Assembly: GCA_016778895.1 (NCBI GenBank)
Contig: JADHOR010000017.1
Location: forward strand, 1 to 35,860
Reading direction: 5' to 3'
DNA from: Candidatus Puniceispirillum sp.
GTDB taxonomy: Bacteria; Pseudomonadota; Alphaproteobacteria; Puniceispirillales; Puniceispirillaceae
Length of the DNA: 35,860 bases
Positions 1 to 12,564 of this stretch are shown piece after piece. The position numbers and the translations under genes are program-made. Position 1 is the stretch's first letter. Each line of letters opens with the position of its first letter. A model generated the notes under the pieces. That model worked only from the letters and a program-made list of their open reading frames with translations, did no database searches and had not been told where the DNA came from.

Positions 1-29
1 ACCCCCGCGCATTTGTCTTCCTATGCCTC

Positions 30-56
30 GGCCAGCCTTTGCGCTGGCCTTTTTTT
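30..56 (+). terminator. Rho-independent terminator at the left edge
   Basis: A perfect 7-bp stem (GGCCAGC at 30-36, GCTGGCC at 43-49) encloses the 6-nt loop CTTTGC and is followed by seven T residues. It should end transcription of a plus-strand gene lying to the left of the window. The hairpin is also part of a repeat found again near 1.0 and 2.1 kb. Confidence 0.8.
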
Positions 57-63
57 GTGGCAA
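32..63 (+). repeat. Dispersed repeat copy R1
   Basis: These 32 nt run from CCAGCC to GTGGCAA and match 2137-2168 (copy R3) at all but one position, by hand alignment. The hairpin core CCAGCCTTTGCGCTGG is also in copy R2 (1011-1026). R1 precedes the first of three single-gene modules. R1 lacks the CTATAAC-containing upstream part shared by R2 and R3, so its left boundary may reflect a junction or simple divergence. Confidence 0.7.
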
Positions 64-117
64 CCTACCGGAACACAAAGCAATAAAAGTAACGTTGACT
101 GAGTAGTAAAATAACCG

Positions 118-897
118 ATGTATAAGATTATCCAAATCACTGACCCACATTTGTCGCGACCGGGGCAGAACCTTTGGAGCCTCAACCCTTTCGAACGACT
201 GGAAACTGCGTTCAAGGATATATCGACGTTTCATAGTGATGCAGAAGCCTGCATTATATCTGGAGACCTCACAGATTCTGCCTCACCTGAAGCATTGCGG
301 TGGTTAAAGGACTCTTTGGCGGGCTTTCCCATTCCTACCCATTTGATGATTGGAAACCATGACGTTAGGTCAGTGTTCTTTGATGTTTTCCAAACATACC
401 CAAAAGATGAAAATGGATTTCTGCAATATGCATTCGAATTGGCGGGGGACCGGTTTCTTTGCTTAGACACAAAGAAGGACGAACCTGTCTCAGCGGGCCA
501 ATATTGTGGAAAGCGTATGTCTTGGCTCGAAAATGAATTAAGCAAGACCCATCAGGATGTATATCTCTTTATGCATCATCCCCCTTTTGAAGTTGGTGTC
601 CCTTACATGGACCGCATCAAGCTTGATGAAGCTGAAGCCTTCGGAAGATTAGTGTCCAATTATAAGAATGTCCGGCACATTTTTTTCGGGCATGTACATC
701 GACCAGTTTTTTTGAGCTGGCAAGGGATAACTTGCTCGGCATGCCCTGGAATCAATCATCAGATTCCATTGGTAGCTGAGGCTGTGTCCACCAAGTGTTC
801 TGTTGAGCCTCCAATGTACGCCGTAATCGAAATTGGACATGGCAATATCCGAGTAAACCAAGACGCATTTTTGGACCGGTACCCTACAGCTCGATAG
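118..897 (+). CDS. CpdA/Icc-like metallophosphoesterase
   Basis: Calcineurin-like metallophosphoesterase of 259 aa, closest by motif layout to class III cyclic-nucleotide phosphodiesterases (CpdA/Icc), which hydrolyse cAMP with a dinuclear metal centre. The metal-binding blocks are present in order: D9-x-H11 (ITDPHL), G49-D50 (GDLTD), G79-N-H-D82, H153-H154-P-P and G191-H-V-H194. There is no signal peptide, so the protein should be cytoplasmic. The ATG at 118 starts the first beta strand exactly as in the family, but no Shine-Dalgarno sequence precedes it. A TAAAAT element at 107-112 would put a transcript start near the ATG, so a leaderless mRNA is possible. The gene stands alone between repeats R1 and R2, which suggests acquired cargo. 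The true substrate could be another phosphodiester. Confidence 0.85.
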   Translation: MYKIIQITDPHLSRPGQNLWSLNPFERLETAFKDISTFHSDAEACIISGDLTDSASPEALRWLKDSLAGFPIPTHLMIGNHDVRSVFFDVFQTYPKDENGFLQYAFELAGDRFLCLDTKKDEPVSAGQYCGKRMSWLENELSKTHQDVYLFMHHPPFEVGVPYMDRIKLDEAEAFGRLVSNYKNVRHIFFGHVHRPVFLSWQGITCSACPGINHQIPLVAEAVSTKCSVEPPMYAVIEIGHGNIRVNQDAFLDRYPTAR

Positions 898-983
898 ACT
901 GCACTAATTTCAATTTGAACGTCAGTGGCTAGCAACCCATCGGTTGCAAGCCCACCTTAAACGTAGTGACGGGGCAGCTAATC

Positions 984-1026
984 CTATAACAGTGTGGGCG
1001 TCACTGACGGCCAGCCTTTGCGCTGG
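984..1026 (+). repeat. Dispersed repeat copy R2
   Basis: The copy starts with CTATAACAGTG, continues through GGCGTCAC and ends in the hairpin CCAGCCTTTGCGCTGG (1011-1026). It aligns along its whole length with 2109-2152 (copy R3) with a one-base length difference and a few substitutions. It lies between the metallophosphoesterase and the 3' end of the amidohydrolase gene. A T-run is absent here, so terminator function is doubtful for this copy. Confidence 0.7.
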
Positions 1027-1035
1027 TCTCAGGTA

Positions 1036-1989
1036 TTATTGCAAATTGAAAACCTTTACGGCGTTTTCATAAGCTAACTTTTTAGCAATATCTGAACTGA
1101 AGTTAGGCAAAAAATCCCGTTTAATTTCCTCAATCAGTTCAGGATATTTGGGTTTAAGCCCGCAACAGGTATCTGAGCCAACCATAACTCTATCTGGGAA
1201 CCGCTCAATCAGTTTACGCCAGCCCTCTTTGACACCGGATTTCCCAAACATGCGGTAATTGCCTTCGCCATATATTTTTGCTTTACGAGGCACCATTGCC
1301 GCGTGAGTTGGGCCATTCTCACCAGAGGTTTCGCAAAACACATTATCAGTTTGCGAGAATATTTTGTGAAGCTGAGGCAAAACATTGGGAGTTTTGCCCG
1401 GCACGCAATGTGCCAAGATGGTTTTGGTTGAAGGAAAGCGCCTGCTCAAGGCAATTACGCCATTGGCCAAGTTCTCAGAGTATTCGACATGCAGTTGAAC
1501 AAACCCCTTATACTTGTCTGCTATTTTATAGATTTCTATTATAACTGGGCTGTTTATAGGTATCTGGCGCCGCATTGGCATCGGCCCGCTTGAATGATTG
1601 TCTGTATGTATCTCTCCAAAACCTGTTATTTTTCCTGCCTCAAATAAGGTCACTGACTTTGAGAGCATGAATTTTATAAACTTATTATTTGGGTCTTGCA
1701 GCGCCGCCTCACCTCCGTTCTTGAACGCAGCCATAAACTGCGACTGGCCAAACGCAGGTATATAACGGCTTCCTAGCTTTGCTATCATCTCATCGGAATA
1801 GCTGCCTACACCACCACCCCATTTCACGCCAAGGCTGTCCATTTTTCCCGCATACCAATCAGCCTCTGAGGCAGTCCTTTCATAAGCATGCATATGGACG
1901 TCAGCTATCGGTAGGTCGGCTGCTAAACTTGAAGACAGAGGCCCCAGGACAATACCGAATAAAAAAATTGATTGAAGCAAATGATACAT
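1036..1989 (-). CDS. Exported amidohydrolase (amidohydrolase_2 type TIM barrel)
   Basis: A 317-aa metal-dependent hydrolase of the amidohydrolase superfamily. Residues 1-24 form a signal peptide ending SSSLAA before D25, so the mature enzyme should be periplasmic or lipid-free exported. Candidate metal and catalytic residues follow the superfamily pattern: D30-x-H32-x-H34 at the first strand, E126, H167, H194 (ILAHC) and D273 (VGSDTC). The start ATG at 1989 has an AGGAG box 7 nt upstream. The gene is AT-rich (a hand count of 1621-1680 gives 20 G/C in 60), in contrast to the pur genes further on, which is consistent with transfer. It lies alone, opposite in strand to its neighbours, between repeats R2 and R3. 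Substrate is not evident; related families include carboxylate decarboxylases and amide or lactone hydrolases. Confidence 0.75.
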   Translation of the reverse strand: MYHLLQSIFLFGIVLGPLSSSLAADLPIADVHMHAYERTASEADWYAGKMDSLGVKWGGGVGSYSDEMIAKLGSRYIPAFGQSQFMAAFKNGGEAALQDPNNKFIKFMLSKSVTLFEAGKITGFGEIHTDNHSSGPMPMRRQIPINSPVIIEIYKIADKYKGFVQLHVEYSENLANGVIALSRRFPSTKTILAHCVPGKTPNVLPQLHKIFSQTDNVFCETSGENGPTHAAMVPRKAKIYGEGNYRMFGKSGVKEGWRKLIERFPDRVMVGSDTCCGLKPKYPELIEEIKRDFLPNFSSDIAKKLAYENAVKVFNLQ

Positions 1990-2292
1990 CAGACAACTCC
2001 TAATCTAAAAGAGAACTTTCCAAAAAATATCAACCAGAAAATCATCACGCTTTTTTTACAAGTTTGGCAAGTGGCAGTGGTGAATTGCCTATATGTTGCA
2101 CCCCACTACTATAACAGTGACGGCGTCACCATACGTCCAGCCTTTGCGCTGGCCTTATTTTGTGGCAAGTTGTAAGTGTTCCCGGTCGTTGACTCAAACG
2201 CCCTCACCTCAATGAGATACCTGCCTCGCAAAGGCACTCTTTTAAGATCCTGAAATGCAGCTAGCACTTCAAAAATCAGATAGAGAAAAACA
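1990..2292. other. Gene-free stretch containing repeat R3
   Basis: About 300 bases separate the divergently transcribed amidohydrolase and homocysteine methyltransferase genes. The AGGAG of the amidohydrolase and repeat R3 are the only structures I can support. I looked for a SAM or SAH riboswitch ahead of the methyltransferase and saw no convincing fold. Confidence 0.5.
2109..2168 (+). repeat. Dispersed repeat copy R3, longest copy
   Basis: This copy contains both parts of the repeat. The left part, with CTATAACAGTG and GGCGTCAC, is shared with R2. The right part, a CCAGC/GCTGG hairpin followed by CCTTATTTTGTGGCAA, is shared with R1 with one mismatch in 32 nt. The hairpin plus TTATTTT can serve as a weak terminator on the plus strand. 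It lies between the amidohydrolase and methyltransferase modules. Confidence 0.7.
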
Positions 2293-3237
2293 ATGACAGA
2301 CTACTATGCAGAGTTGATTGAAAAGCGAGAACAGCTGTTACCAATAATCCTAGACAGCGGTGTATCAACCGAGCTTGAGCGCAGAGGGGCCAAAATGCGC
2401 AACGGGCAATGGTCTGGGTGTGTCGCTATAGATGATTATGAAAAACTAGTTGAGACCCACATTGCCTATATCGAGGCTGGAGCTGACATCATCACTGTGA
2501 ATAGCTATGCAAGTTCTCGCCTTATGCTTGGGCCAGCAGGGCTTGATAATGAAGTTCAACAGATAAATCGTTTAAATATTTCCGCTGCAATTGAAGCAAG
2601 GCAAAAAACCAGAGCGACTGTGTCTGTTGCTGGCTCCATATCTCACGCGCTTCCATTTACTGATGGGGTCGAGGGTGCGAAGCAACAACCTGATATTTCA
2701 CCTGAAGAACTATCAGATTGTTACAGCGAAATGATATCAATTTTTGAGAACGAAGGGGTTGACCTAATTCTGCTTGAAATGATGTCAATTCCAGCGCGAA
2801 TGACTCCCCTCTTTAGGTGTGCAAACAAATCAAGTTTACCAATCTGGTGTGGGTTGTCAGCGAAAAGAGAAACCCCGACGGCTCCATTGACCTCGTGGCA
2901 CGATACGTCTGTCTTGTTTGAGGATATTGTGATTAAAGCTTGCCATTATGATTTCGATGCAATCGGTATAATGCACACTTCAGTTGACGCAATTGAGGCC
3001 GCATTAATTGCAATAAAGAGTCATTTTTCAGGTATGTTGATGGCTTACCCTGACAGTGGATATTTTGTGGCGCCGAATTGGCAATTCGAAGACATAATTG
3101 AACCGCAGGTGCTGCTGGAATACGCTAGAGGCTGGCAGAAAAATGGATGCTCCATATTTGGTGGATGCTGTGGTCTTGGACCAGAACACACCACTGCTCT
3201 TAGTGAACTCAAATCGGGGTATCCGCCATCGCTATAA
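2293..3237 (+). CDS. Homocysteine S-methyltransferase family protein (MmuM/BHMT-like)
   Basis: A 314-aa protein covering the whole homocysteine-binding domain family, whose members move a methyl group from S-methylmethionine, betaine or similar donors to homocysteine using a zinc-bound thiol. The N-terminal block ILDSGVSTELERRG (19-32), the conserved VNSY segment (69-72), AYPDSG (251-256) and the C-terminal zinc motif GGCCG (290-294, C292 and C293) are present. At the place where relatives carry the first zinc cysteine (usually GxNC) this protein reads GIMH, with H228. The metal may therefore be held by Cys2His, or the activity may differ. The RBS is weak (AGAGA about 7 nt upstream of the ATG). 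The stop codon lies inside the degenerate repeat R4, next to an integrase remnant, so the gene is probably cargo of a decayed element. Confidence 0.82.
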   Translation: MTDYYAELIEKREQLLPIILDSGVSTELERRGAKMRNGQWSGCVAIDDYEKLVETHIAYIEAGADIITVNSYASSRLMLGPAGLDNEVQQINRLNISAAIEARQKTRATVSVAGSISHALPFTDGVEGAKQQPDISPEELSDCYSEMISIFENEGVDLILLEMMSIPARMTPLFRCANKSSLPIWCGLSAKRETPTAPLTSWHDTSVLFEDIVIKACHYDFDAIGIMHTSVDAIEAALIAIKSHFSGMLMAYPDSGYFVAPNWQFEDIIEPQVLLEYARGWQKNGCSIFGGCCGLGPEHTTALSELKSGYPPSL

Positions 3238-3265
3238 CATTGGCTCAGTGCAGCCAGCCTTTGGC
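3232..3265 (+). repeat. Degenerate repeat copy R4
   Basis: CTATAAC (3232-3238) and CCAGCCTTT (3254-3262) occur in the same order as in R2 and R3, but the spacing is 5-6 nt shorter and the hairpin is lost (TTGGCC follows). It overlaps the stop codon of the methyltransferase gene and begins where similarity to the integrase stops. With so few matching bases, common ancestry is only likely, not certain. Confidence 0.4.
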
Positions 3266-3411
3266 CGCTTCCCAAAAACAAAGGACTTGATGCGCTTTTT
3301 GGTGATTCACACTGAAAAACCAGACACCTCTGTATCCCGAACCCAGGCCTGCTCTTTTTCAGCCGAACATAGAAGCTTGGCAACCACAGATGCTGTTATT
3401 TTCTGTTTCAT
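3265..3411 (-). pseudogene. Remnant of a phage-type tyrosine integrase (N-terminal arm-binding domain)
   Basis: Reading from ATG at 3411 on the minus strand gives MKQKITASVVAKL, then AWVRDTEVSGFSV, a TGA stop at 3309-3307, and in the same frame ITKKRIKSFVFGKRPKAG. This is the layout of the N-terminal domain of P4-like integrases (DUF4102 type), in which a D-T-E-x-x-G-F-x-V-R-V-T-x-x-G-x-K-S-F pattern is usual. The stop falls where relatives normally have Arg, so a CGA-to-TGA change is a simple explanation. Only about 50 codons remain. The catalytic domain is absent and the frame ends at 3232, next to the methyltransferase gene. The reading frame is open upstream to 3528, but the ATG at 3411 fits the family start. 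Confidence 0.65.
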
Positions 3412-3463
3412 CACACCACGTCGATTCTTAACGAAGTTCAAAAAAATCAAAAACATATATTTG

Positions 3464-3491
3464 AAAAGGGCTCCCAAAAGGAGCCCTTTTT
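3464..3491. terminator. Bidirectional terminator hairpin
   Basis: GGGCTCC (3468-3474) pairs with GGAGCCC (3480-3486) around the loop CAAAA. The flanking AAAA and TTTTT extend the stem and provide U-tracts in both directions. It sits just upstream of the integrase remnant and ahead of the small lipoprotein gene. It would isolate that gene from the left-hand region. Confidence 0.75.
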
Positions 3492-3592
3492 CATAAGCAA
3501 AGTCTTTGAATAATCTTTTGCTTGCCACATTCAGAACAAATAAAAGCCAAGCTGCCCACCTAAGATCAATACTCTATTGGAGGATATAATTC

Positions 3593-3793
3593 ATGACCAA
3601 AATTTTTCTGACATTGTTTGCCATGACGCTTGGTGGTTGCAATGCAGCATATATTGAAACAGTTAATAAACAGCTCGCTGAAGGCTACAGATGGGTAGAA
3701 ATACCATGTCGGCCTGCAAAATCGGATGTGCCGTCAATTACAATAAATACGCCAGACAACAAAAAACTGGTCTGTAATGAACTGCAAAAGTAG
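3593..3793 (+). CDS. Small predicted lipoprotein
   Basis: A 66-aa protein with a type II signal peptide: MTK, a hydrophobic stretch, then the lipobox LGGC with the lipidated cysteine at C16. The mature part is about 50 aa and contains two further cysteines (C39 and C61) that could form a disulfide in the periplasm. A strong GGAGG box lies upstream of the ATG at the usual spacing, which supports real translation. I do not recognise the family. It is flanked by a bidirectional terminator on the left and a long inverted repeat on the right, so it is probably transcribed alone. Confidence 0.6.
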   Translation: MTKIFLTLFAMTLGGCNAAYIETVNKQLAEGYRWVEIPCRPAKSDVPSITINTPDNKKLVCNELQK

Positions 3794-4210
3794 TTTTCGC
3801 TGATTGGCTTTCATATTTAAGAAGTGAGCAGTCATTTTTTTTGCGTAGACCTCCGAGTGAACTCCACATTTAGGCACCATTACCAATGGAACTGCACGAA
3901 CACAGGCAGTTCCATTGGTAATGGTGCATCAAAGTAGTGCAGACCTACTCCCCGCCCGCACCATCTTTAAAGCTAAACCAGAGCTTACAAATTGATCTTC
4001 AAGGATTCTTTTGTATTGCCGTAAGGGTGGGTAGCTGTGTTGATATTGTGATGTTTTGTTTAGCGAGGTTAGTTACACTAATGGGGGCGCTTTAGAGATT
4101 GTGTGGAGCTCTTTGGGTCAACTTTAGACCTGAATCACAAATTGTTGATCCCAGATGGGCAATAGGCGATTAACATTTTTTTATAAATCCAGAATAAGAA
4201 CGAGCTGGCA
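3794..4210. other. Gene-free stretch with a long inverted repeat
   Basis: About 417 bases between the lipoprotein gene and the convergent alpha/beta hydrolase gene. The perfect inverted repeat at 3874-3927 is the only clear structure. Reading frames here are short and none resembles a known protein. Confidence 0.5.
3874..3927. repeat. Perfect 22-bp inverted repeat with 10-nt loop
   Basis: The left arm 3874-3895 (starting GCACCATTACC) is the exact reverse complement of the right arm 3906-3927 (ending GGTAATGGTGC). The loop is 3896-3905. No T-run follows on either strand, so it is not a normal intrinsic terminator. Such a long perfect stem could form a cruciform, be a recombination or element end, or be a protein-binding palindrome. 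Confidence 0.85.
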
Positions 4211-5059
4211 TTACCCATCGACGATATCTTTAAGAACTGGCATTAGATATTGTTTGAACAGGGTTGGGTTTTCACTCATTGGGAAATGCCCCATACCCTC
4301 CATCAAAATGGATTTTGATCCCCTGATTCTCTGGGCTGTGGCGAACATGCGTTCAGGTGTGCAAGAACAATCATATTCGCCTGACATCAAATAGATGGGG
4401 CATAAGCTGGTATCAATATTACCTGAGACTTTGTCAAAGTTACCGTCGAGCCAATAGAAATGCAGATCACCCTTGAAAATACCCGGCCCACCTTGCATGT
4501 AGTGCCACAGTGTTTCATGGCGAAAATGGCTTGGGCTTTGAGGTGCAACCTGAGACGAGACGAACGCCGCCTGAATTTCGCCACCATGCACATCCGGTCG
4601 GTGTAGCCAGTCCAAATCATAATATGGCGATAAATTATCAGCACCTTCCAGCGCGATCATGGCGCGATATTGCAACGGGTTGTCAAGGGCTAGATGGCAA
4701 ACGATGCGTCCCCCCATCGAACATCCCATTACTACCGGCTTATTAAGGCCTAGCGCGGCAATGACGGAGTTCACTACGCTCTTATATCCATCGACGGTAA
4801 GTTTATATTCAGTCGTTTGGAAATTTTCTGGTGGGTTCGATTTACCATGCCACGGCATATCAAAGGCAATTACCCTAAACTGGCTCGTAATGTCCTTGTC
4901 ACAGAGAATGTGGCGAAACTGGCGGGCGTCGGAACCGGCTGTGTGCAGGCATAGAAGAGGGATGCCGGCACCACTTTCTTCCATGTAAATTCTATACGAC
5001 GTGCCCGCCACCTCTAATGTAAAATACCTACCTTTGATGGGTTCAAACTCGATATCCAT
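4211..5059 (-). CDS. Alpha/beta hydrolase
   Basis: A 282-aa alpha/beta-fold hydrolase with a complete apparent triad. The nucleophile elbow is GCSMGG (S114), the acid is D230 in GEYD, and the histidine is H258 in GMGHFP. The oxyanion region is LHTAGSD (38-44), and FDMPWHGKS (66-74) is the usual loop after strand 4. There is no signal peptide, so it is cytoplasmic. The start is ATG at 5059, with AGGGAA overlapping the end of the upstream gene 8 nt away, so the two are co-transcribed. The partner is an SCP2-like lipid-binding protein, which suggests a lipid, steroid or hydrophobic ester substrate; that is inference from context only. Confidence 0.8.
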   Translation of the reverse strand: MDIEFEPIKGRYFTLEVAGTSYRIYMEESGAGIPLLCLHTAGSDARQFRHILCDKDITSQFRVIAFDMPWHGKSNPPENFQTTEYKLTVDGYKSVVNSVIAALGLNKPVVMGCSMGGRIVCHLALDNPLQYRAMIALEGADNLSPYYDLDWLHRPDVHGGEIQAAFVSSQVAPQSPSHFRHETLWHYMQGGPGIFKGDLHFYWLDGNFDKVSGNIDTSLCPIYLMSGEYDCSCTPERMFATAQRIRGSKSILMEGMGHFPMSENPTLFKQYLMPVLKDIVDG

Positions 5060-5067
5060 CCGCTGAC

Positions 5068-5436
5068 TTAACTTTCCCTATTCTTTGATATTAGGTCCTT
5101 AAAATATTGAAGGTTTTGCATAAGTGGCAACAAGTCACCATCGATTTTGACGAGACCTTTTGCCAGCATCGCAAATATATCGTGGTAATCTCTTTGAGGA
5201 ATTTTCTGCCAATGTTTGCGCCAGCTGGACGCTTCAGCGCGAATGGAGAAACTACCCGTTGTGGTTTGCAGTTTCCGCTGGGAGATTTTGATTATTTTTC
5301 CCTGTTTAATGGTGATCAAATAATCAACTTCTCCAACTCCAATTGTAAAAGTTAAATCTACCCAGCGCCCCCTGTGTACCAGTGCCGGGTCAGCATTCAC
5401 GAGGCTGCTCAATCCAGTTAGATCCAAATAATACAA
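5068..5436 (-). CDS. SCP2-like (sterol carrier protein 2 fold) protein
   Basis: A protein of about 122 aa. Its central strand region (RGRWVDLTFTIGVG), the tryptophan segment SSWRKHWQKIP and the ending KIDGDLLPLMQNLQYFKDL fit bacterial SCP2-like proteins, which usually end with a GD-x-x-x-LM-x-N-L-x-YFK pattern. These proteins bind hydrophobic ligands in a tunnel. No ATG is available: the frame is open up to a stop at 5478-5476, and the first plausible starts are TTG codons (5436 or 5427), so the start is uncertain. It is the first gene of a two-gene unit with the alpha/beta hydrolase. Confidence 0.65.
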   Translation of the reverse strand: MYYLDLTGLSSLVNADPALVHRGRWVDLTFTIGVGEVDYLITIKQGKIIKISQRKLQTTTGSFSIRAEASSWRKHWQKIPQRDYHDIFAMLAKGLVKIDGDLLPLMQNLQYFKDLISKNRES

Positions 5437-5768
5437 AGCTGGCCATTTCCTGTATTTGCGGTCTTCGTATTTATGCTAGCGACAAGATAGCACCAGTCAA
5501 TGGCACAATTTCAGCATTTTCGAACATTAAAGCCGCATCCCAAGATTAACCTGGCTGGCAACCATGTGAATGGCTTATTACCTCAAACGATCAAGGGTCT
5601 TTTTACTCTGCCACTAATTCACCCATGGAAGATTTATAACCAGTAACAATAACGTTTTGTTAAGCCTTCCAAAAACCTACAGTCGCGTCAATCGACGATC
5701 AACCAGTGCAACCGGTGGGCGAATAATCAAGACCGGTTGCTGACTAATTATTGAGGGTTTTTGGTAGG
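5437..5768. other. Gene-free stretch between divergent history blocks
   Basis: About 330 bases between the 5' end of the SCP2-like gene and the 3' end of the nucleosidase gene. It holds the hairpin at 5708-5740 and a pair of inverted 9-mers, CCAAAAACC (5669-5677) and GGTTTTTGG (5756-5764), that could fold the region together. A 48-codon plus-strand frame at 5500-5646 has no RBS and no recognisable similarity. The promoter of the SCP2-like/hydrolase pair must lie in the left part. Confidence 0.45.
5708..5740. terminator. Hairpin downstream of the nucleosidase gene
   Basis: GCAACCGGT (5708-5716) is the exact reverse complement of ACCGGTTGC (5732-5740), giving a 9-bp stem with a 15-nt loop. It lies about 30 bases past the stop of the minus-strand nucleosidase gene. 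There is no strong U-tract, so it may stabilise the mRNA end rather than terminate transcription by itself. Confidence 0.4.
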
Positions 5769-6323
5769 TTATTTATTGAGGATTTCAGCTGAAAAAAGCC
5801 TAGCACCAATGGCTACTTGCTGGCTCCAGTCCTTAGGAGCGTCACCATCAGCATTATCCGAAATAAACTTGAAGCAATGAAAATCAATGGCTTTTTGCCG
5901 ACAAATCTTGGCAAGCGCATAGGCTTCCATATCAACAAGGTCGGTGACAATTTCGGGCGGCGCGCTGACAAATTGATCGCCAGTGCTACAGCTTAATCCC
6001 TCTCCGTCGGTGGTGATCTCGATATCCTTTTCAAATGGCGTTTGGCCAAGCGCAAACCCCAACGCCCGCACATCCATATCACGCTGCAGGAAACGGGTTA
6101 CGACATGCAGCCCGCTGAGGTCGGGGCGGAGCGCGCCGGCACTGCCGTAATTTACTACCTGTCGCGGTTGATATTTCGCAATTGCATCGCACAATGTCAC
6201 GCTGGCATTTATTTTGCCAACGCCGGTATAAACGATGTCCCACCCTGCCGCCATTGCCCGCGGTAGTTCATTTTCCAGCGCCACCACAAGCAGCGTTGTT
6301 TGCGGATTAAATCTAGTCATCAT
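5769..6323 (-). CDS. mtnN: 5'-methylthioadenosine/S-adenosylhomocysteine nucleosidase
   Basis: A nucleosidase of the PNP/UDP phosphorylase family, which cleaves methylthioadenosine and S-adenosylhomocysteine to adenine plus the thioribose derivative. Visible family blocks are ALENELPRA (E17/E19, the water-activating glutamate region), YTGVGKINA (32-40), VNYGSAGAL (57-65), VDMEAYALAK (130-139, ribose-binding Met-Glu) and FISDNADG (153-160, general acid D156). At 184 aa it is shorter than the roughly 230-aa enterobacterial enzyme; the loss is in the middle of the protein. Two adjacent ATG codons (6323 and 6320) are possible starts. Both overlap the end of apt, so translation is coupled to it. 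The adenine made here is the substrate of Apt. Confidence 0.82.
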   Translation of the reverse strand: MMTRFNPQTTLLVVALENELPRAMAAGWDIVYTGVGKINASVTLCDAIAKYQPRQVVNYGSAGALRPDLSGLHVVTRFLQRDMDVRALGFALGQTPFEKDIEITTDGEGLSCSTGDQFVSAPPEIVTDLVDMEAYALAKICRQKAIDFHCFKFISDNADGDAPKDWSQQVAIGARLFSAEILNK

Positions 6324-6843
6324 AGGTCTTTAGCGCGATTAAAGAGGCATCCAAACCCGCCCGTCCACCAAGTGCAGCCAGCTCAATCACAACCGCGCAG
6401 GCCGGCACAATCGCGCCGCAGGTTTCAAGTAATGATTTCGCCGCAATCATGGTTCCTCCAGTGGCAAGCAAATCATCAATTAACAATACCCTACGCCCCA
6501 TTACTGGCGCATCCTGCTGGATAATTAATTCGGCCGTGCCATATTCCAAATCATAACTGGCACGTACCAGCTTGCCTGGTAATTTTCCCGGTTTGCGCAT
6601 CATCATCGAGCCAATGTTCAGCCGCGATGCCAATAATGTTGAAAATAAAAACCCGCGGGATTCAATGCCCGCAATAAGATCGATATCAAACGCCGATAAC
6701 TGTGCGGCAAACTGGTCGATAGCGTGTCGCATGCCCGCAGCCGATGCTAGTAGCGGGCTGATATCACGAAACAGGATTCCGGGCTTTGGAAAATCTGGAT
6801 AGCTGGCGATATATTCGCCAAAATCAATCAACTCGCTCGACAC
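6313..6843 (-). CDS. apt: Adenine phosphoribosyltransferase
   Basis: A type I phosphoribosyltransferase of 176 aa that converts adenine and PRPP to AMP and pyrophosphate in the cytoplasm. The family opening YPDFPKPGILFRDISPLL (15-32), AGIESRGF (58-65) and the PRPP-binding loop VLLIDDLLATGG (119-130) are all present. The start is the GTG at 6843, chosen because it gives the normal N-terminus and is preceded by GGGAGG 5-6 nt upstream. The longer frame reaching 6990 adds non-conserved sequence. It overlaps mtnN by 8-11 nt, forming an adenine salvage unit. Confidence 0.92.
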   Translation of the reverse strand: MSSELIDFGEYIASYPDFPKPGILFRDISPLLASAAGMRHAIDQFAAQLSAFDIDLIAGIESRGFLFSTLLASRLNIGSMMMRKPGKLPGKLVRASYDLEYGTAELIIQQDAPVMGRRVLLIDDLLATGGTMIAAKSLLETCGAIVPACAVVIELAALGGRAGLDASLIALKTYDD

Positions 6844-7078
6844 CCAAAACCTCCCTAACACAGAACCTAGTCGCTTTGGCGAGATCACCCCCGCAGCTTT
6901 ACCTCTCGCCGACTTATATCGCGTATTGGCGCAACCCAAACTGGATTTACCACACGACCTACTCGAGCCGCGCAGTGGTGATATTGGCACCCTTGACTAA
7001 AAGATCAGGGGCAATAAGAAAACCTCCAAGGCTGATCAGCGGCAAAGGCTGATGCGGCGCCATTGCAATACGCAATTT

Positions 7079-7267
7079 TCAACCTTGGCGCAAGAAATTA
7101 TCAATTCCAACGGCACGTCTTGCACCCTCGTTTGGCAGTGCACCACACACTGCCTGATCTAGCATCGCACGGATATTAGCGCGCGCCGCCAGCGACCGCA
7201 AAATCGTTCGCCTGATCATCGGCTGTCCGTGCGAAACCTCGCTGCAACAGTTTGACTGAGTATTCAT
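7079..7267 (-). CDS. Small hypothetical protein upstream of apt
   Basis: A 62-codon frame starting at ATG 7267 with a good GTGAGGA ribosome site about 6 nt upstream. The product is basic, with RRTILRSLAARANIRAML in the middle, and has no signal peptide or membrane segment. I do not recognise it. It is separated from apt by about 235 bases without other content. It could be a real small gene or the decayed 3' part of an older gene; the ribosome site is the main argument for translation. Confidence 0.35.
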   Translation of the reverse strand: MNTQSNCCSEVSHGQPMIRRTILRSLAARANIRAMLDQAVCGALPNEGARRAVGIDNFLRQG

Positions 7268-7443
7268 TTGATCCTCACCTTACGCTGCTGTCAGATTTCA
7301 CCTATTTTCTCGCAAAATTGTGACATCAAGACCTGTTTTGACAAACAATAATGCTTTTTAAACCTTTTCTTCAAAGTTATTTGCCGATCCGCTTAGGGCG
7401 CGGTAGATTGCTGGCAATCATCACCCACGGACACATATATTTA

Positions 7444-8289
7444 ATGTTTTTCCTGCCACTTTTTGATGAAAATGCCACTGGCCGACGACCCATTATCGTG
7501 TGGCTGTTCATCGCTGTCTGTGTTGCCGTTTTTTTGTGGCAGCAGTCGCTTGACGAGGTGGCCGCACGGCTGGCGGTCTATCAGCTGGGCTTTGTCCCCA
7601 CAATCGTTTTAAAGGGCGACACACTTCCGGCCGAGATAATTATTGTTCCGGGCTGGGCGACAATATTCACCTCGATGTTTTTACATGGCGGCTGGCTGCA
7701 CCTTGGCGGTAATATGCTGTATTTATGGATTTTCGGCGATAATGTTGAAGATGCGATGGGCCGCGGGCGCTTCATCGTCTTTTATTGTCTATGCGGCTTG
7801 ACCGCTGCCTTGTCACAAGGCCTGATCGACCCGTCCTCACCCATTCCAATGGTTGGCGCATCAGGTGCGATTGCCGGCGTGCTTGGCGCCTATCTGGTTC
7901 TACACCCAAAGGCAGCGGTACGCTGTCTGTTGATTATCATCGTATTTTTCCGCTTTATAAATCTGCCAGCATGGCTGGTGCTTGGTGGGTGGATCGGCCT
8001 GCAATTTGCCGCGGCGCCGCAGGCCTTTAGCGGTGATGGCGGCGGGGTTGCATATTTGGCACATATTGGGGGTTTTATCGCTGGTCTTGTACTGGTTCCA
8101 CTTTTCAAAAAGAGTCACATATCCCTGTTTGATCGCGGCAAGCCGCCAAAAACATGGTCAGGTCAGCCAATTAGTTTTGACGAGATGAAGCGAGAGGCTC
8201 GCAAGAGATTCCAGCGCAATGCCGGTCAGACAGCACGCACGTCAATTCCGTCCTCAAAGCCAAGACGGCAAAAGGGGCCATGGGGTTAG
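7444..8289 (+). CDS. Rhomboid family intramembrane serine protease
   Basis: A 281-aa polytopic membrane protein of the rhomboid family, which cleaves transmembrane segments of other proteins inside the membrane. The catalytic serine is S140 in GASG and the histidine is H207 in AHIGG. The HLGGN motif (86-90) supplies the oxyanion asparagine N90. Hydrophobic segments fall near 17-32, 75-97, 110-125, 138-155, 160-187 and 203-220. A basic, probably cytoplasmic tail of about 60 aa follows. ATG 7444 is chosen because MFFLPLFDEN is the usual beginning in alphaproteobacterial homologues; the frame extends upstream to 7351. The RBS is weak. It is convergent with the cinA-like gene, with 27 nt between the stops. 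Confidence 0.87.
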   Translation: MFFLPLFDENATGRRPIIVWLFIAVCVAVFLWQQSLDEVAARLAVYQLGFVPTIVLKGDTLPAEIIIVPGWATIFTSMFLHGGWLHLGGNMLYLWIFGDNVEDAMGRGRFIVFYCLCGLTAALSQGLIDPSSPIPMVGASGAIAGVLGAYLVLHPKAAVRCLLIIIVFFRFINLPAWLVLGGWIGLQFAAAPQAFSGDGGGVAYLAHIGGFIAGLVLVPLFKKSHISLFDRGKPPKTWSGQPISFDEMKREARKRFQRNAGQTARTSIPSSKPRRQKGPWG

Positions 8290-8316
8290 AGCTCTCTGGG
8301 GGTTAAGCACCTCGGT

Positions 8317-9096
8317 TCAGCCTTGCAACGTGCCATCGGCATTGACAATATTTGCCTCGGCGCCAAACGCCCGAACGCCTGCCTCAACCGCCTTTGCCGC
8401 AGCTGTTGTAACCGCGACATCGAGCCCGCTGACAACAACTGCGGTACCAAAGTTGCCCGGCTTCATCCATGGGTAGCTACCAACACTTACCCCTTTATAG
8501 CCTGTCTCAACGTCCAACAATATCGTGGCGATATTACCCTCGCCGGTCGCGCATTGAACCGTAATCCGCGTCATCACAACACCGCCCGGCAAGCGCGATT
8601 TCAGCCCTTCAAACATGGCTTGCAAGATCGTTGGCACGCCGGGAAGGACGTGAACATTACCGATGATATAGCCAGGTGCAGCCGATAGCGGATTATCAAT
8701 CAATGCAGCAGTATCTGGAATATCCGCCATTTTCTGGCGCGCTGCATTAAATTCAAGGTCAGTATTGGCATAATGCAGGATGAGCCGGCGTTCAGCCTCG
8801 GGATGACGAATAACTGGCACGTCAAAGGCGACAGCCACCGCATCAGTTGTGATATCATCATGCGTCGGTCCAATACCGCCGCTGGTAAACACCAGATCAT
8901 AAGTTTTTGACAATGTTTGCACAGTGTCGATGATCATTTGCTTTTTATCGGCAATCACCCGTGCCTCGCCTAGCTGGATACCCAGCGCGCCAAGCTGTTC
9001 AGCCAGCCAGCCAATATTTTTATCCTTGGTGCGACCCGACAGGATTTCATCGCCAATAACAATTATGGCGGCGGTAGGATTCGGCGAAGATGTCAT
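8317..9096 (-). CDS. CinA-type molybdopterin-binding (MoCF) domain protein
   Basis: A 259-aa protein built on the MoCF/MoaB-Mog fold found at the N-terminus of CinA. Motifs include IVIGDEILSGRTKDKN (12-27), VFTSGGIGPTHDD (near 69-81) and VHVLPGVP (near 153). The C-terminal PncC nicotinamide-nucleotide amidase domain of full-length CinA is absent. Such short proteins are common in alphaproteobacteria and their role is unclear; pyrophosphatase activity on ADP-ribose or FAD-like molecules is known for relatives. ATG 9096 is preferred over 9123 because conserved sequence begins right after it. It is divergent from map, with about 235 bases between. Confidence 0.82.
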   Translation of the reverse strand: MTSSPNPTAAIIVIGDEILSGRTKDKNIGWLAEQLGALGIQLGEARVIADKKQMIIDTVQTLSKTYDLVFTSGGIGPTHDDITTDAVAVAFDVPVIRHPEAERRLILHYANTDLEFNAARQKMADIPDTAALIDNPLSAAPGYIIGNVHVLPGVPTILQAMFEGLKSRLPGGVVMTRITVQCATGEGNIATILLDVETGYKGVSVGSYPWMKPGNFGTAVVVSGLDVAVTTAAAKAVEAGVRAFGAEANIVNADGTLQG

Positions 9097-9331
9097 GATC
9101 GGAAACCTTGAATTTAGCGACAAAAATCAAAGATGGGACTTTGGTCAAATATGCGCGATGTGTCAAATAACTTGATGCGGCCAAGACCGCTCATGCGGCG
9201 TTTATTGCAGTTTATAGGTTTCGCGCCAGACAAAATATGCTATTCCAGCGGCATCACACTAGTGGAAAATAACGTTGGCGCCTGTCCGCACGACGAAGAC
9301 GACCACCCGTAGGGGTTTTCATAGGGGTAAA

Positions 9332-10123
9332 ATGCGAAGCGATACAGTGATCCGACATGGTGCCGAAGGCTTTGCTGGCATGTATAAAGCAGGCCGCCTT
9401 GCCGCCGAGGTATTGGACATGATTACCCCGCACGTGATCGCCGGCGCTAGCACCGAACATCTGGACAAGCTCTGCCATGATTATATTCTGGCACATGGTG
9501 CCTTGCCTGCCCCGCTGAATTACAAGGGCTTTCCGAAATCGACCTGCATCTCGCTTAATCATGTTGTTTGCCACGGAATTCCCGGGCCAAAAACATTGCG
9601 TGACGGCGATATTCTGAACATCGACATCACCGTGATATTGGACAGCTGGTACGGCGATACCTCACGCATGTTTTATGTTGGCGAGCCATCAATCAAAGCC
9701 CAACGCCTTACCGAGGTAACTTATGAATGCCTGATGCGCGGCATTGCCGTGGCCAAAGCCGGAAACACGCTTGGCGATATTGGTCATGCCATTCAATCCT
9801 ACGCCGAATCATGCCGCTATTCGGTGGTTCGTGACTTTACCGGACATGGCCTTGGACAGGTGTTTCACTCAGCCCCGACCGTGTTGCATTATGGCGAGGC
9901 TGGCAGCGGCATGGTGCTTGAACCGGGGATGATCTTTACCATCGAACCGATGATCAATGCTGGCCGCGCCGAGACCAAAATTCTAAATGATGGGTGGACA
10001 GCGGTTACACGAGACAAAAGCCTGTCGGCACAGTTTGAACATTCGATCGGCATTACCGAAGGCGACGCCGAAATATTCACAAGATCACCTGCTGGGCTGA
10101 CTTTGCCACCCTATGCTAGTTAA
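9332..10123 (+). CDS. map: Methionine aminopeptidase type I
   Basis: A 263-aa enzyme removing the N-terminal methionine from nascent proteins in the cytoplasm. All five metal ligands are visible: D98 and D109 (NIDITVILDSWYGDTSRMF), H172 (GHGLG), E205 (FTIEPMI) and E236 (FEHSIG). H81 in CHGIPG is the substrate-binding histidine. ATG 9332 is chosen because the protein then begins at the usual distance from GMYKAGRLAA; the frame also has an ATG at 9275. A GGGG ribosome-site element lies just before 9332. The next gene downstream on the same strand is the broken radC, 75 nt away. Confidence 0.93.
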   Translation: MRSDTVIRHGAEGFAGMYKAGRLAAEVLDMITPHVIAGASTEHLDKLCHDYILAHGALPAPLNYKGFPKSTCISLNHVVCHGIPGPKTLRDGDILNIDITVILDSWYGDTSRMFYVGEPSIKAQRLTEVTYECLMRGIAVAKAGNTLGDIGHAIQSYAESCRYSVVRDFTGHGLGQVFHSAPTVLHYGEAGSGMVLEPGMIFTIEPMINAGRAETKILNDGWTAVTRDKSLSAQFEHSIGITEGDAEIFTRSPAGLTLPPYAS

Positions 10124-10198
10124 GAAAATCGGCAAGCTGCACCCCCCTTTAACGGGCAATTAACCCAATTTTAACCCTAATGGGTTATATGTTTGGCT

Positions 10199-10912
10199 AT
10201 GTCCAAACCTTCAGACCCGCCCAAGCCAGCCGCGCTAGCATCACATGATACTAAGGGGCACCGTGCCCGTATGCGGCAAAAGCTTTTGGAAAAGGGCGGC
10301 ACTACCCTGACCGATTTGGAAATTCTAGAAATGCTGCTTTATGTGGGCGCTCCACGCGGCGACACCAAGCCTTTGGCAAAGCGGCTCGTCAAGATATTCA
10401 AAAGCCTGCCAGCGGTACTTAGGGCGAAGCCGACCGAGTTGCGGGCAGTAAAGGATATGGGCGATGCGGCAATTGCCGCGCTTAAGGTTGCCGAGACAAC
10501 CGGCCTTCACATCAGCCACTCACGGATCAAAGGGAAACCGGTTTTAACGCATTGGATGGATGTGCAGGATTACTGTATCAATAAATTGGCGCATTAGCCG
10601 ATCGAATATGTGATGCTGTTACTGCTTGATAGCCAGAACCGGCTGATTGCCGATGAAACCATTTCACGCGGCACGGTGAACCAGACGTCGGTTTACCCGC
10701 GCGAAATTGTCAATCTTGCCCTTCAGCACTTTGCCCATGCTGTGATCATTGTTCACAATCATCCGGGCGGCGAAACCTCACCGTCACGCGCCGACATCTC
10801 GGTAACAAAGGATATCGACAAGGCGTTGGCGGTGATTGGGATTACATTGCATGATCATTTGATCGTTGCCGGTACAAATTGTGTTAGCCTGAAAAGCCTC
10901 GGCCATCTCTAG
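10199..10912 (+). pseudogene. radC: radC interrupted by a single in-frame amber codon
   Basis: A RadC/UPF0758 family gene of 237 codons in one frame, broken by TAG at 10595-10597 (codon 133). Before the stop is the helix-hairpin-helix half (LLEKGGTTLTDLEILEMLLY to DYCINKLAH). After it, in the same frame with no shift, is the complete JAMM/MPN half: PIEYVMLLLLDSQNRLIADE, then the metal motif HNHPGGETSPSRAD, to the normal C-terminus. Homologues usually have an ordinary residue at the stop, and GAG-to-TAG is a one-base explanation. The JAMM half begins with GTG-ATG codons at 10607-10612 that could allow restart, but I see no RBS. The start ATG is 10199. Because the rest is undamaged, the mutation is recent, a sequencing error, or tolerated by readthrough. 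Confidence 0.85.
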
Positions 10913-10973
10913 GAATTTTCCACAGATGCACCAATATGCGCCAGAAATGCACCAAAGATATAAAGAACTGGCG

Positions 10974-11165
10974 TTATCGCTCGGCGTCGTCACGCAGCTT
11001 GGCAGCGGCCTTGCGGGTAAGCTCGCCGGCTTTGCGGCTGGCGCGCAATAACGATGGACGGGCCGCATCAAGGGCTTTTCCTGCCATTTCGCCGGCCTTT
11101 TTTTGCACGTCTGGATTGCGCGCGGCGCGCATCAATGCAGCAACAACAAAACGGCGAATCAGCAT
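10974..11165 (-). CDS. Small alanine- and arginine-rich hypothetical protein
   Basis: A 63-aa protein beginning MLIRRFVVAALMRAARNP and continuing as one long, probably helical, Ala/Arg/Lys-rich stretch (KAGEMAGKALDAARP, then RKAGELTRKAAAKL). ATG 11165 is chosen because AAGGGG lies 7 nt upstream; the frame extends to 11192. An amphipathic N-terminal helix could touch the membrane. Similar short proteins occur in alphaproteobacteria as conserved hypotheticals, from memory, but no function is known to me. It is divergent from purB. Confidence 0.5.
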   Translation of the reverse strand: MLIRRFVVAALMRAARNPDVQKKAGEMAGKALDAARPSLLRASRKAGELTRKAAAKLRDDAER

Positions 11166-11271
11166 ATAGATACCCCTTACCAAAATAGCCACAATGTCTA
11201 GTTATGCGCTGGCTTTTTACCCACCCCAATGCTATACCCAAGTTCCATTTAACGCAAAAGGTATTAGAAGT

Positions 11272-12564
11272 ATGATCCCGCGATATTCCCGGCCAGAAAT
11301 GAGCGCAATCTGGTCTGAGGAAAGCAAATTCCAGATTTGGTTTGAAATCGAAGCACATGCCTGTGACGCGCAGGCAAATTTGGGCGTAATTCCCGCATCG
11401 GCTGCGGCTGTCGTCTGGGAAAAAGGCGCTTTTGACATTGATCGAATCAACGAGATTGAGCGCGAAACCAAACATGATGTGATCGCATTTCTGACCAATC
11501 TGGCAGAATATATCGGCGAAGATGCCCGCTTTGTGCATCAGGGCATGACCTCATCGGATGTTCTCGACACCACATTATCGGTACAGATGGCGCGCGCCGC
11601 CGACCTGTTAATCGGTGGCATTGACCGTTTGCTTGCCGGGCTGAAAACACGCGCCTTTGAGCATAAACGCACACCAACCATTGGCCGCAGTCACGGCATT
11701 CATGCCGAACCGGTAACCTTTGGTCTAAAGCTGGCTGGCTTTTATGCCGAATTTAAGCGTTGCCGTGACCGTATGGTGGCCGCGCGGCAGGAAATTGCCA
11801 CCTGCGCGATATCCGGTGCGGTCGGAACTTTTGCACATATCGATCCGGCGGTAGAGGCACATGTTGCCGAAAAAATGGGGCTGACGATTGAGCCGGTCTC
11901 AACGCAAGTAATCCCGCGCGATCGTCATGCGATGTTTTTTGCGACCTTGGGTGTGGTGGCAAGCTCGGTTGAACGGCTGGCAACAGAAATTCGGCATTTG
12001 CAGCGCACTGAAGTGCGTGAAGCCGAGGAGTTTTTCTCGGCTGGGCAAAAGGGCTCATCTGCCATGCCGCACAAGCGTAACCCGGTTTTAACCGAGAATT
12101 TGACCGGCATTGCCCGCATTGTTCGCGCCGCCGTGGTGCCAGCTTTGGAAAATGTCGCGCTGTGGCATGAGCGCGATATCTCGCATTCATCAGTGGAGCG
12201 GGTGTTTGGCCCCGATGCCACAATCGGGCTTGATTTTGCCCTGCACCGTCTTGCCGGCGTTATCGAGAATCTGTTGATCTATCCTGAGGCAATGCAGGCC
12301 AATCTTGATAAACTGGGCGGTCTTGTGCACTCGCAGCAGGTTTTGCTGGCACTGACCCAAAAAGGGGTCAGCCGTGAAGATGCCTATGTATATGTTCAGC
12401 GCAATGCGATGAAAATCTGGGCAGAAGGGGGCAGCTATCTCGATAAATTGAAAGCCGACACGGATGTTGCAGCGAATTTGAGCAGTAGCGAGCTAGATGC
12501 GCTTTTCGACCTTGACCAGCATTTCCGCCATGTTGATACGATCTTTGAACGGGTATTCGGCTAG
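11272..12564 (+). CDS. purB: Adenylosuccinate lyase
   Basis: A 430-aa fumarase/aspartase superfamily enzyme acting twice in purine synthesis: SAICAR to AICAR plus fumarate, and adenylosuccinate to AMP plus fumarate. The N-terminus MIPRYSRPEMSAIWSEE, the block GMTSSDVLDTTL and the signature GSSAMPHKRNP (mobile loop with the catalytic serine) are diagnostic. ATG 11272 matches the family start and follows an AAGG element; the frame is open to 11194 but upstream residues are not family-like. It is the first gene of the pur cluster, 46 nt ahead of purC. Confidence 0.95.
   Translation: MIPRYSRPEMSAIWSEESKFQIWFEIEAHACDAQANLGVIPASAAAVVWEKGAFDIDRINEIERETKHDVIAFLTNLAEYIGEDARFVHQGMTSSDVLDTTLSVQMARAADLLIGGIDRLLAGLKTRAFEHKRTPTIGRSHGIHAEPVTFGLKLAGFYAEFKRCRDRMVAARQEIATCAISGAVGTFAHIDPAVEAHVAEKMGLTIEPVSTQVIPRDRHAMFFATLGVVASSVERLATEIRHLQRTEVREAEEFFSAGQKGSSAMPHKRNPVLTENLTGIARIVRAAVVPALENVALWHERDISHSSVERVFGPDATIGLDFALHRLAGVIENLLIYPEAMQANLDKLGGLVHSQQVLLALTQKGVSREDAYVYVQRNAMKIWAEGGSYLDKLKADTDVAANLSSSELDALFDLDQHFRHVDTIFERVFG

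Follow-up and report, generated by a model that had tools for sequence, protein, structure and literature searches.

The stretch analysed here, referred to below as the window, is a whole contig of 35,860 nucleotides (JADHOR010000017.1; C50 in our numbering) from the 2.17-Mb genome of the SAR116 bacterium Candidatus Puniceispirillum sp., which is assembled in 61 contigs. Next to its left edge, which is the contig end (C50:1), three modules, each with a single gene, are bounded by copies of a hairpin repeat, denoted R1 to R4. This repeat and the modules that it bounds, in the window and in related genomes, are the subject of the present analysis. The features are the following.

29..63, + strand: R1, a terminator-type joint with the stem GGCCAGC/GCTGGCC, loop CTTTGC, T-run and GTGGCA; its upstream part is lost at the contig end
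118..897, + strand: module 1, metallophosphoesterase (PF00149)
927..1028, + strand: R2 together with the C-type element ahead of it (GGCTAGCAACC..GGTTGCAAGCC hairpin, CTATAACAGTG); the T-run and GTGGCA are absent
1036..1989, - strand: module 2, amidohydrolase (PF04909), reversed
2109..2168, + strand: R3, the end of a C-type element and a full joint (hairpin 2137-2152, T-run, GTGGCA)
2293..3237, + strand: module 3, homocysteine S-methyltransferase (PF02574)
3231..3266, + strand: R4, the degenerate end of module 3 (GCTATAACATTGG...CAGCCAGCCTTTGGCC)

The first three copies are present as described in the initial annotation of this DNA. R1 (29-63), R2 (984-1042) and R3 (2109-2168) have in common the perfect 16-mer CCAGCCTTTGCGCTGG; R1 and R3 are identical in 31 of 32 bases (32-63 against 2137-2168, a single mismatch), and R2 and R3 share the stretch CTATAACAGTG...CCAGCCTTTGCGCTGG with one indel. 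The 16-mer occurs in the window in three exact copies, compared to 0.50 expected at up to three mismatches, and none of 100 shuffled sequences reached three. Directly behind R2 lies the reversed amidohydrolase gene. The degenerate R4 (about 3231-3266), which the initial annotation counted as a fourth copy, was missed by the covariance model of the repeat; it is nevertheless a genuine module end, because the similarity of the methyltransferase module to two other genomes, G005 and G014, ends at window position 3243 in both, and the G014 copy of the module terminates in a recognisable hairpin. The statement that the other 32 kb contain no copy holds for clear copies; there is one weak covariance match (7507-7542, E 0.035), which is probably due to chance. 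None of the repeats was matched when window positions 1-12000 were scanned against Rfam at E up to 1. The C-type element (for example, window 927-952) is a second hairpin, GGCTAGCAACC..GGTTGCAAGCC, approximately 60 nt ahead of the joint, and the C-type stretch is common to all four copies of one upstream family.

In the complete 2.17-Mb source genome, the 16-mer has 14 matches at up to two mismatches, compared to none for a reversed control pattern. Ten of these lie within approximately 7 kb of a contig end, the exceptions being those on C4, C28 and C49 and one on C21. The matches at the end of C33 and the start of C37 represent one place because these contigs overlap: 136 bases or more at the C33 end are identical to the C37 start. 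The assembly is broken at a hairpin between the two: the overlap of the C33 end (L025) and the C37 start (L022) of this genome (G000) is exact and runs to the hairpin, behind which the sequenced population may have had two different continuations.

The covariance model has matches in at least 13 of the 16 genus genomes (E <=0.05), with strong ones (best E <1e-9) in at least 11 and weak ones in G001 (0.0099) and G003 (0.032); the copy counts per genome are lower bounds. The 16-mer with up to one mismatch is present in 28 of 101 genomes, the source genome included, and forms same-strand arrays in G004 (on one contig) and G005. In the GTDB collection, the joint pattern was found in eight stretches, own-genome records possibly being left out; seven are from records labelled Candidatus Puniceispirillum or SAR116, and the remaining one, a single contig with three matches, comes from a metagenome-assembled genome (MAG) labelled Planktomarina. 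The modules of this contig (L091, JAFMEA010000099.1) are 99.8-100% identical to those of G007, and it is probably a misbinned SAR116 sequence; by eye it appears to open with the 3' part of a tRNA, and ARAGORN calls none. Among the viral contigs searched, none contains the joint pattern.

For the analyses below, 69 copies from 35 sources were collected, two of the 71 matches having been dropped, the first for its weakness and the second because it lay on the strand opposite another match. The joint consists of a 7-bp stem, the usual loop CTTTGC (54 of 68 copies), a T-run and, often, the sequence GTGGCA, and the arms vary in a paired fashion (CCAG/CTGG, CCGG/CCGG, GCCGC/GCGGT). Open reading frames (ORFs) behind the copies were called mechanically; among the 67 copies with an ORF called, the first one is on the same strand in 59, in 54 of them no more than 160 nt from the stem, and the last same-strand stop codon is often located 4-143 nt ahead of the next stem. 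There are 32 closed intervals shorter than 4 kb, from 306 to 3328 nt, of which 18 contain one ORF of at least 80 aa, 12 contain two to six, and two contain none. The genes of recurring modules include members of the GYD, DUF1330, DUF3764, cNMP-binding, TauD and BKACE families. In three genomes, a conserved small protein of 61 aa (MTxHHTSLYDDKTNPAP...) ends right before the hairpin, at these positions.

L077 7539-7724: 61-aa protein
L083 11299-11484: 61-aa protein
L091 5117-5302: 61-aa protein

Homology between copies tends to extend from the joint in one direction only. For the 68 copies with sufficient flanks, two comparisons were made, one of the DNA upstream of a point 2 nt ahead of the stem and one of the downstream DNA that follows GTGGCA. 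Among the 122 pairs of copies that share a flank, 79 share only the upstream one, 38 only the downstream one and five both, and 2065 pairs share neither; with contig-edge copies included, these counts are 90, 38 and 5. More than one upstream context was detected for 11 of the 13 downstream families, and more than one downstream context for 9 of the 11 upstream families. As the control, we used 310 gene borders (gene starts) at least 400 nt away from a hairpin in the same and adjoining loci, where 23 pairs share both sides, 26 the downstream side only and six the upstream side only. The upstream side is kept by 5 of 43 downstream-sharing pairs at hairpins versus 23 of 49 at control borders (Fisher p 0.00025), and the downstream side by 5 of 95 upstream-sharing pairs versus 23 of 29 (Fisher p 6e-15), in a comparison where the pairs are not independent and the control distance limits are looser than those for hairpins.

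The change of ancestry can be placed within the repeat. Across 66 copies (two near-duplicates were dropped), identity at the stem foot (positions 17-18) is 0.82 for upstream-sharing, 0.54 for downstream-sharing and 0.65 for unrelated pairs, whereas at GTGGCA (positions 26-31) the respective values are 0.56, 0.86 and 0.63. When copies are bootstrapped, the differences are 0.28 (95% interval 0.06-0.50) at the stem foot and 0.30 (0.01-0.51) at GTGGCA, with both lower bounds near zero. On this evidence, the upstream module tends to bring the stem along, and the downstream module the T-run and GTGGCA.

The same shuffling is apparent when orthologous loci are compared. G004 and G012 match over two segments of the chromosome, 2.2 and 2.4 kb long (73-78% identity), and then over a 360-bp stretch that runs through the hairpin at 83%, after which the modules differ; G004 contains an extra integrase in between. 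At tRNA-Pro, G005 and G010 share a 3.4-kb flank (93.7%), with seven model copies in G005 and two in G010, and their TauD modules are homologous from within the hairpin onward. At tRNA-Ser(gct), where the flanks are 74-93% alike, the number of copies is two in G000, one in G005 and zero in G010. Differing modules precede one conserved right flank (78-94%) in G000 C61, G004 and G005 C8, a locus where tRNA-Ser(tga) was found in G004 only. Judging from G000 and G002, modules can be more alike than the chromosome: the DUF1330 module is 92.7% identical, compared to 68% for 900 bases near tRNA-Ser(gct). A comparison of G000 and G004 at tRNA-Arg(tcg) as an empty site was dropped, there being no right-flank match beyond the tRNA. 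Downstream of tRNA-Ser(gct), L177 (G006) and L178 (G013) contain a long internally repetitive stretch that is 87% alike over 7.3 kb, with many shifted matches.

The modules of the window have relatives of this kind. The metallophosphoesterase module recurs between hairpins in G007 (L084) and in L091, and the methyltransferase module is found in G005 C78 (window 2103-3243, 89.2% identity) and G014 C35 (window 2253-3243, 88.6%); elsewhere, both modules stand beside other modules. For the amidohydrolase, a search of 60 other genomes at E <=1e-20 gave a single relative, in G009, where it is flanked by an integrase and tRNA-Arg(ccg). Beyond R4, the window contains an inverted repeat (3866-3935) whose 30-nt arms, 90% complementary to each other, are separated by 10 nt; the adjoining segment (3464-3876) is 95% identical to G004 341036-341447, far from the orthologous locus. 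Given this distant match, the interval from R4 to the chromosome backbone may contain another mobile piece.

The hairpin looks like an intrinsic terminator. Its stem is GC-rich and is followed by a T-run (on average, 5.9 T over the next seven positions; R2 in the window lacks this run), and its pairing is biased towards the sense RNA. G-T combinations pair in the sense RNA, whereas A-C would pair solely in the opposite strand; the 448 stem cells of 64 distinct cores include 41 G-T and 11 A-C, a difference with p 2e-5 assuming independence, which is too optimistic given shared ancestry. In 41 scanned loci, mostly picked for bearing the repeat, 41 perfect terminator-like hairpins were detected, of which 17 belong to the repeat family, and no other loop occurs more than twice. 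In window positions 1-3600, promoter-like hits are at the level of shuffled sequence (six compared to 5.9), and terminator-like hits are also close to it (six compared to 4.2), although R1 and R3 are among them.

Several arrays are located in islands at tRNA genes. The array of G004 is bracketed by two copies of the 25-bp 3' end of tRNA-Glu (L076 1624-1648 and 14114-14138), with an integrase at one end of the island (L076 12654-13928); another array-linked recombinase is located at L077 5639-6805, and in G010, a second, shorter tRNA-Pro is present at the other end of the array region. In a permutation test with strict thresholds and 32 clusters, a tyrosine recombinase gene is found upstream on the same strand within 5 kb of seven clusters compared to 0.94 expected (p 0.0002), within 2 kb of four compared to 0.39 (p 0.0002), and, on either side and strand within 5 kb, of nine compared to 3.75 (p 0.0014). 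For the window, ARAGORN found no tRNA, and no tRNA or tmRNA that ends in the repeat lies within it. The initial annotation suggested looking for one to the left of position 1, where the contig ends; there, we would expect tRNA-Leu(taa) by synteny, because in G004 tRNA-Leu(taa) and a broken integrase precede the backbone that is orthologous to the window from position 5478.

Taken together, these observations make it likely that the repeat is the joint of exchangeable modules in SAR116 genomic islands, several of them at tRNA genes. The reading is based on the recurrence of modules, the loss of homology at the repeat in both directions and the ancestry switch near the stem foot, and further on the sense-strand bias of stem pairing and the statistical link to tyrosine recombinases; the overall pattern, with exchange at the joint, a terminator-like hairpin and an island setting, is well supported. 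A module or 'cassette', often with one gene and in some cases with several, would start at the T-run and the GTGGCA tag, the gene would follow shortly behind the tag, and the module would close with its own intrinsic terminator hairpin. Modules would be swapped, gained and lost via recombination between repeat copies that serve as portable joints, and island integrases would carry whole arrays into tRNA genes. Of the two origins offered in the initial annotation, the cross-species exchange pattern supports the second, a cassette-like system in which each joint carries a repeat, whereas successive integrations that duplicate the 3' end of a target fail in the literal form, the repeat being unlike the 3' ends of the array-adjoining tRNAs, although some arrays nevertheless sit in tRNA-bound islands.

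Apart from the caveats given with the Fisher comparison and the bootstrap, several observations weigh against this reading. GTGGCA is exact in only 38 of 68 copies, an opposite-strand ORF comes first in 8 of 67, R2 of the window included, and 14 of the 32 closed intervals do not contain exactly one ORF of at least 80 aa. At control borders, 26 of 49 downstream-sharing pairs also lose the upstream side, so islands shuffle anyway, and the effect of the hairpin is therefore one of degree. Identity at position 21, behind the stem, is 0.62 for upstream-sharing and 0.50 for downstream-sharing pairs, which speaks against a clean switch; in the family of L023_12308 and L076_8583, rare bases at positions 17 and 19 go with the downstream module; and the switch could be made sharper by selection that keeps the stem intact. 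By eye, G002 and G004 diverge inside the C-type element and not at the hairpin. There is no same-strand upstream recombinase within 5 kb of 25 of the 32 clusters. Finally, an exact empty site with one fused repeat, as envisaged in the initial annotation for strains that lack a module, was not found in the compared loci; the nearest cases are the leader and hairpin shared by G004 and G012 and the two, one and zero copies at tRNA-Ser.

As regards the agent of exchange, RecA-type recombination via the short shared core comes closest to an even chance while falling somewhat short of it; a site-specific recombinase that acts at the joint is a less probable candidate, and an agent of some other kind is less probable still. 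Homologous recombination via approximately 35 shared bases, with arrays moved whole by island integrases, is the simplest account. Three features, namely the centre shared by the copies, the GTGGCA tag and the location of the switch at the stem foot, would be better explained by a site-specific enzyme. The most far-reaching version is a gene-cassette system of SAR116's own, unrelated to IntI/attC, with a joint that consists of an intrinsic terminator and the TTTTTTTGTGGCA tag and is cut at the stem foot, where island tyrosine recombinases or an unrecognised enzyme would shuttle small metabolic modules across species and among arrays located at many tRNA sites. We hold this to be doubtful, and no less so the more specific proposal that a tyrosine recombinase, perhaps one of the island integrases, acts on the stem-loop and TTTTTTTGTGGCA, inserting and excising modules in trans as IntI does at attC. 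The common 6-nt centre that persists although the arms vary pairwise, the switch near the stem foot, the position of GTGGCA outside the terminator, the recombinase genes upstream on the same strand and the integron-like layout all speak for such an enzyme. Conversely, the two array-adjoining recombinases that were typed are of different subfamilies (the DUF6538 and Arm-DNA-bind_3 types), the source genome has just five PF00589 matches for its 14 repeat matches, most clusters have no recombinase nearby, and the stem goes with the upstream side, contrary to a crossover in the centre of the palindrome; the loop, with CTTTGC in 54 of 68 copies, is not almost fixed, and the site-specific reading is therefore weaker.

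The plainer explanation, that these are ordinary terminators copied by homologous recombination or gene conversion and that the modules are accessory genes with similar terminators, appears rather improbable to us. It is in line with the G-T excess on the sense strand, the T-run and the location of many copies close behind a stop codon. It does not, however, fit the prevalence of a single family among the perfect hairpins (17 of 41, with other loops never more than twice), the presence of GTGGCA beyond the terminator, or the higher frequency with which homology ends at repeats compared to other borders; terminators scattered without a link to the flanked genes, the outcome under which the initial annotation would have to be given up, are not the pattern found.

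A true integron array, or a cluster of attC sites lacking an integron-integrase (CALIN), with unusual attC sites is highly improbable. The likeness is in the layout: as in integron cassettes, tandem, generally one-gene modules (one ORF in 18 of 32 intervals), often with a short leader, alternate with hairpin joints in direct orientation, and the module pool extends across species. The boxes R'' and R' of attC have the motif RYYYAAC ... GTTRRRY. In 65 copies of the repeat, GTTRRRY occurs in five (control, 14), RYYYAAC in 18 (control, 8) and both boxes in one, so that attC boxes as such are not above the control, and in the source genome, the best match to IntI (TIGR02249) reaches 71.6 bits compared to the cut-off of 265. 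Furthermore, the ancestry junction here is near the stem foot, and the hairpin is biased towards pairing as sense RNA, on the top strand, whereas attC is recognised as a folded bottom strand, according to excerpts of PMC8618304. The fold z-scores of three elements are -0.44, -2.06 and -0.75 for the bottom strand and -0.95, -2.55 and -1.06 for the top strand.

REP elements (repetitive extragenic palindromes) and their associated RAYT transposases involve short repeated palindromes between genes, and, despite this likeness and the near-identical repeat copies within G002, movement by a Y1 transposase can be practically dismissed, given that Y1_Tnp was detected in 0 of 16 genus genomes compared to 5 of 14 control genomes and that the copies bound modules in one orientation.

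The resemblance to tRNA-targeted genomic islands with tyrosine integrases, as presented in the portions consulted of the Islander paper (PMC4383910), includes the duplicated tRNA 3' ends (25 bp of tRNA-Glu in G004, the second, shorter tRNA-Pro in G010), integrase genes and cargo; the difference is that here the cargo is made up of modules with hairpin joints, and the modules recur in islands at different tRNAs. Tycheposons of Prochlorococcus and Methylophilaceae, as characterised in excerpts of PMC10872708, similarly occur in marine or pelagic bacteria and combine a tRNA border, a tyrosine recombinase and metabolic cargo; a joint repeat is not mentioned in those excerpts, and they span 4-200 kb compared to the 0.3-3.3 kb of the closed intervals here. 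Hypervariable metagenomic islands have been described in two SAR116 genomospecies of the LGC subclade, in a paper whose excerpted text does not mention such repeats (PMC8547437), and neither searches of the open-access PMC library nor excerpts of PMC12421898, PMC8547437, PMC10872708 and PMC8618304 showed such SAR116 repeats or cassettes. Given how short and defined the joint is, scans for it are feasible in assemblies and long-read metagenomes. For the collection of single genes as interchangeable cassettes, integrons are the textbook case; the SAR116 arrays would represent a second solution, in abundant ocean bacteria, where modules that carry their own transcription stop make up a flexible pool of metabolic genes shared almost gene by gene.

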